NCBI RefSeq assembly: GCF_017352095.1 | Contig: NZ_CP071463.1 | Span: 3,472,001-3,536,000, forward strand | Direction of reading: 5' to 3' | DNA: 64,000 nt | Source of the DNA: Natrinema longum | GTDB lineage: Archaea; Halobacteriota; Halobacteria; Halobacteriales; Natrialbaceae | In this document: positions 16,474 to 20,554 of the stretch, piece after piece | How positions within the stretch are numbered: the first letter of the stretch is position 1 | Layout of the letters: every line of letters begins with the position of its first letter | Translations under genes and position numbers: made by a program | The notes under the pieces: model-generated | What the model was told of the DNA's origin: nothing | The model's database searches: none | What the model saw: the letters and a program-made list of their open reading frames with translations, nothing else

Positions 16474-16896
16474 ATGTCCCAGTCAACTCCCGCCCCCGAT
16501 ACGGACGAGTCAGTCGTCGACGCGTACGTGTTCGACGTTCGAATCGTCGAGATCGACGCGATCGACGGCGACGACTCGCGGTACCGATTCGAGGCACCGA
16601 ACCACACCGAGGTCACGTTCGACGACCTCGAGGATGCTCGCCGCTACGCGGACGTCTACTTCGACGTCAACGGCTTCGTCGAGGAGAACACCGGTGAACG
16701 CGGCGTCCCACCCGAAATCGTCCAGGCCGGCAAGGATACCCTCGCTGCGTACCTCACCACGTGCCCCTGGGCGGACGGCAACTGGGTCGCGTCGTTCTAC
16801 GGGACGACCCCTGCGGAGATCGACCGGTACTGTTCGTGGGTCCGTGACCGGGCCGACGAGATACGAACGCAGATCGAGGAACGCGACTTCGAGTAG
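16474..16896 (+). CDS. haloarchaeal conserved hypothetical protein
   Basis: This is a 140-residue acidic, soluble protein. A predicted beta-rich part (VVDAYVFDVRIVEID, YRFEAPNHTEVTF) is followed by helices (DLEDARRYADVYFDVNGFVEEN and EIDRYCSWVRDRADEIRTQIEE). I recognise no catalytic motif and do not assign a function. It starts about 120 bases after the histidine kinase on the same strand, with an AT-rich segment between that probably carries its own promoter. Confidence 0.7.
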   Translation: MSQSTPAPDTDESVVDAYVFDVRIVEIDAIDGDDSRYRFEAPNHTEVTFDDLEDARRYADVYFDVNGFVEENTGERGVPPEIVQAGKDTLAAYLTTCPWADGNWVASFYGTTPAEIDRYCSWVRDRADEIRTQIEERDFE

Positions 16897-17213: not shown

Positions 17214-19835
17214 ATGGTCGAATTTACCAGGCGGACGCTGATGGCAACATCAGCGGCGGCTGCGATCGGCGTTGGAGCGATCGGGACGGCAACCGCGGCT
17301 GACGCCGATACTCCAGGTGCACCGACGATACGCGGGGACCTCCAGCGGCTCGCGACGACGGCCCGCGGTGCCGAAGTGACTGGCCCGTTCGTCTTCGAGA
17401 ACGGCGAAGTACTGTTCAGCCTGCAGCATCCGAGCCGGGACAATCCGGAGCCGTACGATACGGCGGCCGTCGGGGTCCTCGCCGGCCACCAGTTCGAGTT
17501 CAACGGCAAGAACGACGAGTTCGACGCACTCGAGGCTCCCCGGTCTGCTGACGCACAGGGACGAGTCCAGGTCGCTGGCGGTGAGTACGACATCCTCGTC
17601 CAGGAAGGGGTGCCGATCGCCGGCGGCGACGGGAAGTGGGGCCACCCGGAGACGCCCGACGGCACGGATATCGCCGCGTTCGACGGCAGTCGGTACGGTG
17701 ACGTCGGCTACAACCCCGACATGAACTTCTTCGTCCCGACCGACGATGAGGGGCTCGAGGGGTATCTGTTTACGAACAACGAGACGAGTCCCGGAAGCAT
17801 CACGCGCACGCCGATCAGCCGCGACGAGGACGGCTGGGAGGCCGACCTCGAGAACGCGCTGAACCTCGAGAACCTCGCGGCCTTTCGTGAAATCGGCGGC
17901 ACCCGGATCAACTGTTATGGCGATCTGAGCCCCTGGGAGACGCCGATGTCCGCCGAGGAAGACTACGGCCACCCGCGCGTATCGGGGCCGGCGACGGTGA
18001 GCGACGTCGTCGACGCCGAAAGCGGCGTCGGCGTTCGTGGCGCGGCAGCGTTCTGGAACCGTCCAAACCCGACCGAGATCGGGAACTCGATCGAGGAACT
18101 GTTCGAGGAGAGTTGGTACCCACAGGGAACGTGGGCGCTGGCGGGCCTCGAGATGCAGGCCTACTATCTCGGGGCCGAGCCGGTCGATCAGGACGGCGAG
18201 ACGAACACGACCGATCCCATCGGCGACGGCTATCCGAACCGGTATCGATACGGGCACATCGTCGAGATTACCGAGCCGACGAGTGCGGAGCCGACCCCGG
18301 TCAAACACCACGCCATGGGTCGGGCCGCCTTCGAGTGCCCCGAGTTCATGCCCGACGAGCGGACCGTGTATCTCGCTTCCGATGGCGCGAACAAGGGTCT
18401 CTACAAGTTCGTCGCCGAGGAGCCGATTCCGAGCTACGACGACCGGATGGACGTCCGCGGGACGCTGTTTGCCGCCCGCGTGACTAACGAGGACGCTGCG
18501 AAGAACCGGCCACCCGCCGACGTCGACCTCGAGATCGAGTGGGTGGAACTGGGCACCGCGAGCAACGCCGAGGTCGAGTCCTGGATCGCCGACTACGACG
18601 ATCTCACGCAGGTCGATTACCTCGAGACCCACGCCGAGACCGACTGGGCCGAGGACCTCGAGACCGCACTGGCGGAAGCCGACGAGGAAGTCGCGATCAA
18701 CGGCAACCAGGATTACATCGCAGATGCGGACATCCTCGAGTGGGCCACACAGTACGCAGAGGAGGGTCCCAATGGGGTCGACGAGGATCTCCGTCGGGTC
18801 CCGTTCCTCGAGACGCGGGCCGCAGCGAAAGCGATCGGTGCCAGCGTCGAGTTCCGCAAGGCGGAGGGAATCGACTCGCTCGACGACGCCGAACCCGGCG
18901 ATTTCCTCTACGTCGGTATCTCGGAACTCAACGATGGCATGGCCGACGACGCGGGAGACGTTCGGATGGAACGCGTCGACGGCGGTGTCGTCTACCGGGC
19001 CGAACTGGAGTCCGGCTACGACGTCTCGACGCTCGAGCCGGTCGTCGTCGGCCCGGATGCGACCGATCGCGAGTCGGTCGTCGACGCCGCGCCGATCAAC
19101 GTCGACAACGTGATGGTCCTCGACGACGGCCGCGTCCTCCTCTGTGAGGACAAGGGAAGTTTCGGTCGCTCGTATCCCAACGACGCGCTGTGGGTCTACG
19201 AGCCGCCGACATCGCTTCACGTCGACTCCGTCGCGATCAGCCAGGCGACGAGCGGCGAAGCAGACCTGACGCTCTCGTCGGTCCCGAACGGGCTCGCCGG
19301 CGGTCGAGTCTCCGTCTCCCTCGAGCACACGGACGTCGCCGAAATCGTGGGCGCGAGCTATCACGACGCGCTCGAACTCACCGCCGGACCGACGATCAGC
19401 GACGACGGATCGACGGTCGAGTTCCGATTCGCAGACATCGACGACGAGATCGAACCCGGTACGACGGACGTCACGCTGGCGACCGTCGAACTCGAGGGCG
19501 TCGGCGGTGGAACGACAGACATCGCGGCCGACGTACGATCCCTGGACGACGACGAGGGGACTGCGATCGAAGCCCAGCCTCGGCCCGGCGTGGTCGTCAC
19601 TGGCCCGCCGCCGGTCGGCGGAGGCGGTACCGGTGGACGGGCTCCGACCGACCCCGATGGCGACGGGACGTTCGAGGACATCAACGGGAACGGTCGGCTG
19701 GACTACGACGACATCGTCCTCCTCTTCGAACACCTCGACGACGAGTCGATCACGCTCAACGTCGACGCCTACGACTTCAACGACAACGGCCGCATCGACT
19801 ACGACGACATCGACGAACTGTACGACGAACTGTGA
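17214..19835 (+). CDS. secreted PhoX-type alkaline phosphatase with cohesin-like and dockerin modules
   Basis: This is an 873-residue exported protein. An N-terminal Tat-type signal (FTRRTLMATSAAAAIGVGAIG, ending TATAAD) leads into a PhoX/DUF839 beta-propeller phosphatase region at about residues 40-655 (PETPDGTDIAAFDGSRYGDVG, VKHHAMGRAAFECPEF, LLCEDKGSFGRS). PhoX enzymes are Ca2+- and Fe-dependent phosphomonoesterases that release phosphate from organic compounds. A cohesin-like beta-sandwich follows at about 667-790 and a Pro/Gly linker at about 795-812. A dockerin module closes the protein, with calcium loops DINGNGRLDYDD (from residue 822) and DFNDNGRIDYDD (from residue 854). Dockerin modules are unusual on phosphatases. 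The stop overlaps the start of the next gene. Confidence 0.88.
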   Translation: MVEFTRRTLMATSAAAAIGVGAIGTATAADADTPGAPTIRGDLQRLATTARGAEVTGPFVFENGEVLFSLQHPSRDNPEPYDTAAVGVLAGHQFEFNGKNDEFDALEAPRSADAQGRVQVAGGEYDILVQEGVPIAGGDGKWGHPETPDGTDIAAFDGSRYGDVGYNPDMNFFVPTDDEGLEGYLFTNNETSPGSITRTPISRDEDGWEADLENALNLENLAAFREIGGTRINCYGDLSPWETPMSAEEDYGHPRVSGPATVSDVVDAESGVGVRGAAAFWNRPNPTEIGNSIEELFEESWYPQGTWALAGLEMQAYYLGAEPVDQDGETNTTDPIGDGYPNRYRYGHIVEITEPTSAEPTPVKHHAMGRAAFECPEFMPDERTVYLASDGANKGLYKFVAEEPIPSYDDRMDVRGTLFAARVTNEDAAKNRPPADVDLEIEWVELGTASNAEVESWIADYDDLTQVDYLETHAETDWAEDLETALAEADEEVAINGNQDYIADADILEWATQYAEEGPNGVDEDLRRVPFLETRAAAKAIGASVEFRKAEGIDSLDDAEPGDFLYVGISELNDGMADDAGDVRMERVDGGVVYRAELESGYDVSTLEPVVVGPDATDRESVVDAAPINVDNVMVLDDGRVLLCEDKGSFGRSYPNDALWVYEPPTSLHVDSVAISQATSGEADLTLSSVPNGLAGGRVSVSLEHTDVAEIVGASYHDALELTAGPTISDDGSTVEFRFADIDDEIEPGTTDVTLATVELEGVGGGTTDIAADVRSLDDDEGTAIEAQPRPGVVVTGPPPVGGGGTGGRAPTDPDGDGTFEDINGNGRLDYDDIVLLFEHLDDESITLNVDAYDFNDNGRIDYDDIDELYDEL

Positions 19836-20554
19836 GCGATAGATCGCCACGACATCGGGTCGGCGCGCTCGCCGTCGCCCTCGCGGTCGGGCTTGCGGTC
19901 GGGCTCCCGGTCGCGGTCACGGCCGCGAGCGGTGGGGCGGCTCTCGGCATCGGAGCAACCACGGAGACCGGAAGCAGTCTCGTCGTCGCCGACGCGACCG
20001 TCGAACCCGGAGCGACCGCGACCCATCGCATCGCGCTCACCGACGCCCCGGACGGCCTCGCGGGCTTCGAGATCACGCTCGAGCTATCGACCGACGCTGC
20101 GACGGTCTCGAACGCCAGCTATCCCGACACGTACGGGAAGACGACCGATCCCGTCGTAAGCGACGACGGACAGTCGGTAACCGTCGAGGCTGCCGACCTC
20201 ACCGACGAGGTGACTCCCGGTGCGACCGACGTCACGCTCGCGACGGTCGCAGTGACCGGAACCGACACCGGCTCGGCGACGCTCGAGATCACGGAGCTGC
20301 AAGTCGACGCGGACGGCGGGTCCCGCATCGACCCCGTGCTCGAGGCCGGAACGCTCACCGTCGACGACGGGACACCGGCGTCCCCAGAGAGTGGGAACGG
20401 CGACGCCGACGGCGGTACCGATTCCAGTGATGGGAGTGGCTCGGGTGGCTCGAACCGGGGTTCGGGTTCGGACTCGGTCTCCGGCTTCGAGGGCGGGACC
20501 GCGCTCGTCGCGATCGGCCTCCTCGCGGCAGCCCTGCTCGCGCGGTCCCGGTGA
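19832..20554 (+). CDS. membrane-anchored cohesin-like surface protein
   Basis: This 240-residue protein starts at a GTG that overlaps the phosphatase stop (GTGA), so the pair is translationally coupled. An N-terminal signal (VGALAVALAVGLAVGLPVAV) is followed by a cohesin-like module at about residues 40-165. It aligns with the one inside the phosphatase: DGLAGFEITLEL, SDDGQSVTVE and PGATDVTLATV match NGLAGGRVSVSL, SDDGSTVEFR and PGTTDVTLATV. A Ser/Gly/Asp linker then leads to a C-terminal hydrophobic helix and basic end (GGTALVAIGLLAAALLARSR) resembling a PGF-CTERM archaeosortase signal, though with SGFE rather than PGFG. It is probably anchored at the outer face of the membrane or in the S-layer and may bind the phosphatase dockerin. 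Confidence 0.8.
   Translation: MSDRSPRHRVGALAVALAVGLAVGLPVAVTAASGGAALGIGATTETGSSLVVADATVEPGATATHRIALTDAPDGLAGFEITLELSTDAATVSNASYPDTYGKTTDPVVSDDGQSVTVEAADLTDEVTPGATDVTLATVAVTGTDTGSATLEITELQVDADGGSRIDPVLEAGTLTVDDGTPASPESGNGDADGGTDSSDGSGSGGSNRGSGSDSVSGFEGGTALVAIGLLAAALLARSR

Follow-up and report, generated by a model that had tools for sequence, protein, structure and literature searches.

The 64,000-nucleotide stretch of the Natrinema longum genome analysed here (the window) encodes a PhoX-family alkaline phosphatase that carries a cohesin-like module and a C-terminal dockerin in one chain. The gene overlaps with that of a neighbouring protein containing a single cohesin and an anchor-like tail. 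It is likely that the dockerin of the phosphatase docks on the cohesin of the anchored neighbour and that the enzyme is thereby held at the cell surface. The proposal builds on the homology of the two modules, the predicted cohesin fold, the dockerin-like loops, the anchor-like tail, the gene overlap and the conservation of the pair across haloarchaea. Tethering in trans is the reading that we rank first; the formation of head-to-tail chains of phosphatase is possible. Judging from the genes of related loci, haloarchaea appear to use a tether of this kind more generally, the PhoX pair being one instance. G and L numbers are our labels for genomes and loci.

Organization of the locus

The phosphatase consists of a twin-arginine translocation (TAT)-like N-terminus, the PhoX region (residues 216–649), a cohesin, a Gly-rich linker and the dockerin. 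Its assignment to PhoX is based on a match to PF05787 of 84.6 bits (cut-off 24, E = 1.1e-23). The TAT-like motif TRRTLMATS was recognized by eye, and no membrane anchor was noticed in the PhoX sequence. The features of the locus are as follows.

17214–19835, forward strand: gene of the PhoX-family alkaline phosphatase, an open reading frame of 873 amino acids that matches PF05787
19173–19625, forward strand: the phosphatase's own cohesin-like module, 40% identical to the neighbour's module and placed in the clade of PhoX modules (support 100/100)
19629–19832, forward strand: dockerin-like C-terminus of the phosphatase, from the dockerin alignment, with a PF00404 match below the cut-off
19677–19712, forward strand: first EF-hand-like loop (loop 1) in the dockerin, DINGNGRLDYDD
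19773–19808, forward strand: second EF-hand-like loop (loop 2) in the dockerin, DFNDNGRIDYDD, placed 32 residues past loop 1
19832–19835, forward strand: GTGA overlap of the neighbour's GTG start codon with the TGA stop codon of the phosphatase, read from the sequence
19832–20554, forward strand: gene of the anchored partner, 240 amino acids, with a signal-like N-terminus (by eye), one cohesin, a Ser/Gly/Asp linker and a C-terminal hydrophobic tail
19940–20386, forward strand: cohesin module of the partner, from the AlphaFold2 model, Foldseek and VIA-align
20480–20551, forward strand: SGF, hydrophobic segment and ARSR tail at the C-terminus of the partner, anchor-like and resembling PGF-CTERM

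Cohesin identity of the modules

An earlier reading from the sequence only had placed the same cohesin-like module in the phosphatase and in its neighbour, at 19212–20360. The recurrence is borne out, with limits that were drawn slightly too narrow, because the modules occupy 19173–19625 and 19940–20386. The three pairs of blocks to which that reading pointed, NGLAGGRVSVSL / DGLAGFEITLEL, TISDDGSTVEF / VVSDDGQSVTV and PGTTDVTLATV / PGATDVTLATV, were all found, in the same order. The pairwise alignment that it called for is one continuous stretch with 41 of 102 residues identical (40%), one gap and an E-value, for a single comparison, of 4e-19. The Smith-Waterman score of the two modules is 200, against 48 ± 8 for 2000 shuffles (maximum 89, z = 18). 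None of the other frames in a set of 258 stop-to-stop window frames of at least 120 amino acids rises above background in similarity to the modules; the next best score is 59 for the module of the neighbour and 60 for that of PhoX. The alignment and the shuffles exceed the generic Thr/Val-rich beta-sandwich similarity to which the resemblance might have been reduced.

The structure of the neighbour's module was predicted with AlphaFold2 from an alignment of 60 relatives (pLDDT 92.3, pTM 0.84). The best 50 rows of a Foldseek search of the PDB with this model are all cohesins or scaffoldins, 49 of them by title and the remaining one, 3kcp, an entry that we take to be of the same kind. The top row is the non-cellulosomal cohesin of Archaeoglobus fulgidus (2xdh, E = 1.3e-9). 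VIA-align gave Z-scores of 15.7 to 1g1k, 15.2 to 2xdh and 14.8 to 1ohz; 47 of its best 50 rows are cohesins or scaffoldins by title, 3kcp and 2o4e presumably are too, and the lone non-cohesin row is the CLIPPER adhesin domain (Z = 10.9). The model thus predicts a cohesin fold for the neighbour's module, and the 40% identity extends the assignment to the module of PhoX, as the sequence-only reading had proposed for both.

The Pfam model Cohesin (PF00963) has no match to either window protein at E ≤ 1. It matches 3 of the 60 relatives of the module (best 8e-4), and Big_12 matches 7 of the 60, all of them weakly. The best match of a profile of the 60 relatives to PDB sequences is a Ruminococcus cohesin, with an E-value of 0.069 that is too weak alone. 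A bridge between the two families was found in an 812-amino-acid chain of G066, where one module matches both the profile of the module family (5e-13) and PF00963 at its cut-off. We regard the window modules as members of a divergent cohesin subfamily that the standard Pfam model mostly misses. The window genome has two PF00963 matches elsewhere: G000:C1:14411-14761 on the reverse strand (L001), in a 336-amino-acid frame with a hydrophobic C-terminus, and G000:C1:3061946-3062095 on the forward strand (L002), a partial match in a 2141-amino-acid frame.

Dockerin tail of the phosphatase

The last 68 residues of the phosphatase contain two 12-residue EF-hand-like loops, D17 to D28 and D49 to D60, which are 32 residues apart. 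Helices 25–38 and 57–67 follow the two loops in a low-confidence model. The tail therefore has the hallmarks of a type I dockerin, namely two EF-hand-like loops approximately 32 residues apart with a helix after each, and its alignment upholds the proposal that a cohesin and a dockerin-like tail occur within one chain. Dockerin_1 (PF00404) scores the window copy at 12.4 bits, below the cut-off of 22.9. Among the scanned dockerin relatives, which were collected with the same profile that aligns the window tail, the cut-off is exceeded by a 235-amino-acid reading frame of L072 (28.1), a 706-amino-acid reading frame of L132 (23.0), L146 (31.4), L158 (30.0) and L149 (26.5); the remaining ones score below it.

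Loop 1 of the dockerin differs between PhoX loci with and without a partner gene. In partner-bearing loci, position 5 is N in 73/73, position 7 is R in 72/73, and position 10 is Y in 73/73. In six loci lacking a partner, position 5 is D in five and N in one, position 7 is E in four, D in one and R in one, and position 10 is never Y; L130, which lacks a partner, retains both N and R. A seventh partner-less locus, L114, has D at all three positions. The residues of loop 1 vary according to whether a partner is encoded, a pattern that speaks for docking in trans.

The anchored partner

A hydrophobic stretch follows the module in all 75 partners that were compared (73 from unique PhoX pairs and 2 from SNase-type pairs), and PGF occurs within the last 45 amino acids of 35. 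In the window partner, the tail contains SGF and is not matched by the PGF-CTERM model; it is therefore described here as anchor-like and not as an archaeosortase-sorted PGF-CTERM. Two relatives lie on either side of the model's cut-off of 24.5, L051 with 39.4 and L033 with 19.0. Residues Y57, E79 and D119 of the partner cohesins are kept in 73/73.

Apart from the GTG at 19832, no start codon is listed close to the stop of the PhoX gene in the window, and the GTGA overlap suggests translational coupling of the two genes. A GTG at offset −4 from the upstream stop is present in 16 of the 75 pairs, and the remaining pairs start further downstream.

Conservation of the pair

In an unrooted tree of 96 of the 157 modules, from which near-copies had been dropped, the modules of PhoX group together (33 rows, support 100/100), those of the PhoX partners make up a second group (31 rows, 98/91), and the modules from arrays lie elsewhere. 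Both groups cover several haloarchaeal families. Therefore, the pair is old and co-inherited, and the modules did not arise by a local duplication, a possibility that the sequence-only reading had raised. The rejection of a local duplication rests on the support for these two old, separate lines in a tree whose bootstrap is not fully settled.

The 36 named PhoX loci divide as follows: the module, the dockerin and an adjacent partner in 24, the module and the dockerin but no partner in four, the module only in one, and none of these features in seven. An adjacent partner is accordingly present in 24/28 dockerin-bearing and 0/8 dockerin-less loci; the second PhoX genes of L039 and L063 were left out of the count. 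L077 (G067) contains two PhoX genes in tandem, and the module of the downstream partner is split across two frames. The PhoX reading frame is in two pieces in each of L018 and L066. A search of plasmid records gave no match.

Among 391 Halobacteria genomes, the module was found in 157 and the dockerin in 170 (E ≤ 1e-5); 149 genomes have both, 8 the module only, 21 the dockerin only and 213 neither. The Fisher test of co-occurrence, which ignores kinship, gives p = 5e-73.

Proposed tether and alternatives

In the proposed mechanism, the phosphatase would be exported by means of its TAT-like signal. The neighbour would be exported on its own, its hydrophobic C-terminal segment serving to fix it in the membrane. 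The dockerin would then bind the neighbour's single cohesin, probably with calcium, and the phosphatase may in this way be retained at the surface although it is not itself a membrane protein. The gene overlap could keep the levels of the two proteins in step. The phosphatase's own cohesin, which belongs to a different line, probably packs near the dockerin or helps it, or may recruit another dockerin. One site conserved within each line differs between them, being E in 73/73 partners and R, Q or K in 71/73 PhoX cohesins, which suggests different roles for the two cohesins.

Several observations weigh against docking in trans. An AlphaFold2 model of the dockerin joined to the partner cohesin in one chain has a pTM of 0.44 and a pLDDT of 57, with no confident docking. 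The partial correlation of distance matrices is higher between the dockerin and its own cohesin (0.57) than between the dockerin and the partner (0.24); however, linkage in the same chain and shared inheritance would also raise the former, and the plain correlations (r = 0.87 and 0.81, respectively) are not decisive. The seven partner-less rows form one side of a single branch of a quick tree (SH-aLRT 87), and therefore the change in loop 1 counts as one event. Because the search for the named loci used peptide patterns taken from the window PhoX, including one within its dockerin, the sample is biased. The co-occurrence among genomes is inflated because PhoX itself carries both domains and because kinship was ignored. 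Among the matches listed, G185 and G193 have seven and five dockerins, respectively, and no cohesin by either model; the receptors there may belong to a still more distant cohesin line. The two other PF00963 proteins of the window genome could serve as receptors of the sole dockerin found there among the matches listed. Whole-genome searches of partner-less Halegenticoccus, Halalkalicoccus and Halomarina detected the dockerin but yielded, beyond the module of PhoX itself, neither another module nor a match to PF00963 (E ≤ 1e-3); self-association of PhoX is a fair guess for such genomes. Among the matches listed, the module occurs once in each of the partner-less genomes G270 and G330 and four times in G303.

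The residues of the phosphatase's own cohesin were compared between loci with and without a dockerin. Twenty-two columns are conserved in at least 93% of 80 dockerin-bearing PhoX cohesins, and two of these are changed in both dockerin-less loci that have a module, L056 and L119: the G of GLxG (80/80 with a dockerin; A and E in L056 and L119) and G146 at the start of the linker (80/80). In addition, R87 is replaced by S and G in L056 and L119. Because dockerin-less phosphatases also lose conserved residues of their own cohesin, contacts between this cohesin and the dockerin are conceivable. A search of 17 genomes for additional module-bearing, dockerin-less PhoX added none, its sole PhoX case being the known one of G356; the argument from co-absence therefore rests on two loci.

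Two alternatives assign such contacts to the phosphatase's own cohesin. The cohesin may be a companion module that packs against and stabilizes the dockerin of the same chain, and the anchored partner alone would be bound in trans; we give this somewhat less than an even chance. X modules that flank some bacterial dockerins offer an analogue. The invariant order of cohesin, short linker and dockerin in PhoX loci is consistent with a companion role, as are the residues at compared sites, which are unlike those of the partner, and the loss of conserved residues, including G146, where the dockerin is absent; however, the module is homologous to cohesins and to no known X module. The second alternative, the head-to-tail polymerization proposed in the sequence-only reading, is that the dockerin of one phosphatase binds the cohesin of the next; in the form considered here, the anchored partner would be the end piece of such a chain at the membrane. 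Its own cohesin is present in 28/28 dockerin-bearing named loci, the three partner-less genomes named above still have both domains while neither model detects a further cohesin in them, the changes at the G of GLxG and R87 accompany absence of the dockerin, and chains with cohesins and a dockerin occur elsewhere in haloarchaea, for example three cohesins and a dockerin in L135. Nevertheless, we consider it doubtful, because the site with E in partners and R, Q or K in PhoX cohesins makes it less likely that one dockerin fits both, and the dockerin-less cases number just two. It is highly improbable that both modules represent a generic beta sandwich of the adhesin type, next to a calcium-stabilized EF-hand tail, and that the pair do not bind: the silence of Pfam Cohesin on the window modules, the more numerous weak matches of Big_12, the undocked model and the CLIPPER match would fit such a reading, but the fold searches gave almost solely cohesins, arrays of the module adjoin many dockerin-bearing hydrolases, and the residue sets of cohesin and dockerin shift together between the PhoX and cellulase systems.

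Cohesins and dockerins in other haloarchaea

The module is repeated eight times in a chain of 1801 amino acids in G007 and ten times in a chain of 2104 amino acids in G008, each with a GH5 cellulase domain. At 281–327 kb of G007, the array and a one-cohesin protein of 278 amino acids lie amid 17 dockerin-bearing frames on a single strand, two before and 15 after, three of which are cut by the borders of the stretch. Fourteen of the frames were scanned for domains: eight contain GH5, two GH10, one PL14, one fn3 with a sub-threshold CBM5/12, one fn3, and one has no match. In a fifteenth frame, with a cohesin and a dockerin, the domain scan showed nothing but a weak dockerin. Judged by its genes, G007 bears the sign of a cellulosome, a putative multi-cohesin protein together with dockerin-bearing hydrolases (GH5, GH10 and PL14) in the same genome. 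In G008, nine frames known by the dockerin profile alone follow the array. In G126, the dockerin is matched 71 times and the module 16 times, including chains of two or three cohesins with a dockerin. G008 and G126 thus combine multi-cohesin chains with many dockerin frames, whose other domains are mostly unscanned. Ten genomes chosen for many dockerins have 7 to 71 dockerin and 0 to 19 module matches. In G066 and G060, which belong to the genus of the window, chains with two to three modules, fn3, PKD and sub-threshold CBM5/12 are encoded beside a GH5-dockerin gene. The cohesins of the arrays and the dockerins of the cellulases have a residue set unlike that of PhoX at the same sites, as separate binding specificities would need.

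The pairing of a dockerin gene with an adjacent one-cohesin gene is also seen for other proteins, such as an SNase/DUF4350 protein (L078) and a PKD protein (L158). In L149, a 5'-nucleotidase-type protein with module and dockerin is encoded beside a PGF-tailed module protein, and the same cassette occurs in L140 and L146 on proteins with a weak BNR-like match. Considered jointly, these gene arrangements tip the balance slightly towards a widespread, largely unrecognized haloarchaeal cohesin–dockerin system. It would have a large cellulosome-like form, in which a GH5 chain bears 8 to 10 cohesins, and a small one-to-one form that tethers phosphatases, nucleotidases and other exported proteins to the surface and may link PhoX head to tail.

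Relation to known systems

The cohesin of A. fulgidus resembles that of the window partner in being archaeal and in being its top Foldseek match, and the PhoX locus of the window likewise has no link to cellulose. The two differ in sequence (15% identity), and the window has a dockerin on the phosphatase and an anchored cohesin in the next, overlapping gene. Bacterial cellulosomes are paralleled in gene layout by the haloarchaeal relatives with 8 and 10 cohesins per chain and an adjacent one-cohesin protein, one of these relatives also having GH5, GH10 and PL14 genes that bear dockerins. Unlike in bacterial cellulosomes, the repeated cohesins of the haloarchaeal chains come after a GH5 domain, and Pfam misses most of these cohesins. 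Bacterial scaffoldins have anchoring of the S-layer homology (SLH) type. The catalytic region of the window phosphatase is that of PhoX (PF05787). To our knowledge, a typical PhoX has neither cohesin nor dockerin, in contrast to the PhoX of the window; both are also absent in 7 of the 36 named loci from haloarchaea.

Archaea with cohesin or dockerin domains have been described as devoid of large multi-cohesin scaffoldins, with reference to Peer 2009, in the part of PMC9012536 available to us. Proteins of anaerobic methanotrophic archaea (ANME) treated there are also archaeal and combine several cohesins (up to five) with a dockerin; by contrast, the common dockerin carriers among them are binding proteins of ABC transporters, not cellulases or phosphatases, and the lineages are different (PMC9012536). 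A haloarchaeal dockerin takes part in substrate binding according to PMC10963439, a role described as likely in PMC13260240, which follows that paper in the text available. The word cohesin is absent from the main text of both. The glycosidase cluster in the available text of PMC10963439 includes a 1,755-amino-acid GH5/CBM6 protein followed by a 258-amino-acid 'S-layer glycoprotein', a pair that, by this description, resembles an array and its anchor. A study from 2023 that compared 155 haloarchaeal strains (PMC10267330) mentions neither cohesin nor dockerin in its main text. The main texts of a 2024 census (PMC11557425) and a 2025 review (PMC12484212) contain no word starting with 'halo'. PMC10301127, the single paper found in which cohesin, dockerin and haloarchaea occur together, has haloarchaea in the title of a reference only, and PMC8542988 is on bacteria. 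Among the matches listed, no title or abstract opening of an open-licence paper mentions cohesins or a cellulosome of haloarchaea; subscription papers and preprints were outside the scope of this search.

If the proposed docking is true, the anchored cohesins would be the missing receptor of haloarchaeal dockerins, which have so far been given a substrate-binding role in the accessible parts of PMC10963439 and PMC13260240. The tether would provide haloarchaea with a simple way of holding secreted enzymes at the cell, and the arrays would represent archaeal cellulosome-like machines working in saturated salt. Salt-tolerant binding pairs of this kind could be used in protein engineering.

Further dockerin-bearing proteins and the gene adjoining PhoX

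In L140, L146, L147, L148 and L150 (genus g49), a dockerin protein is directly followed by a module-bearing protein. Dockerins of L069 (Haladaptatus) are located on a glucose/sorbosone dehydrogenase–malectin protein and on a multicopper oxidase.

The PhoX gene of the window is adjoined by a gene for a protein of 140 amino acids (16474–16896, forward strand), which has no NCBIfam match at E ≤ 0.1. Homologues are present in 35 of the 36 named PhoX loci, 26 upstream and 9 downstream, irrespective of whether PhoX has a dockerin. The protein is a candidate PhoX helper.

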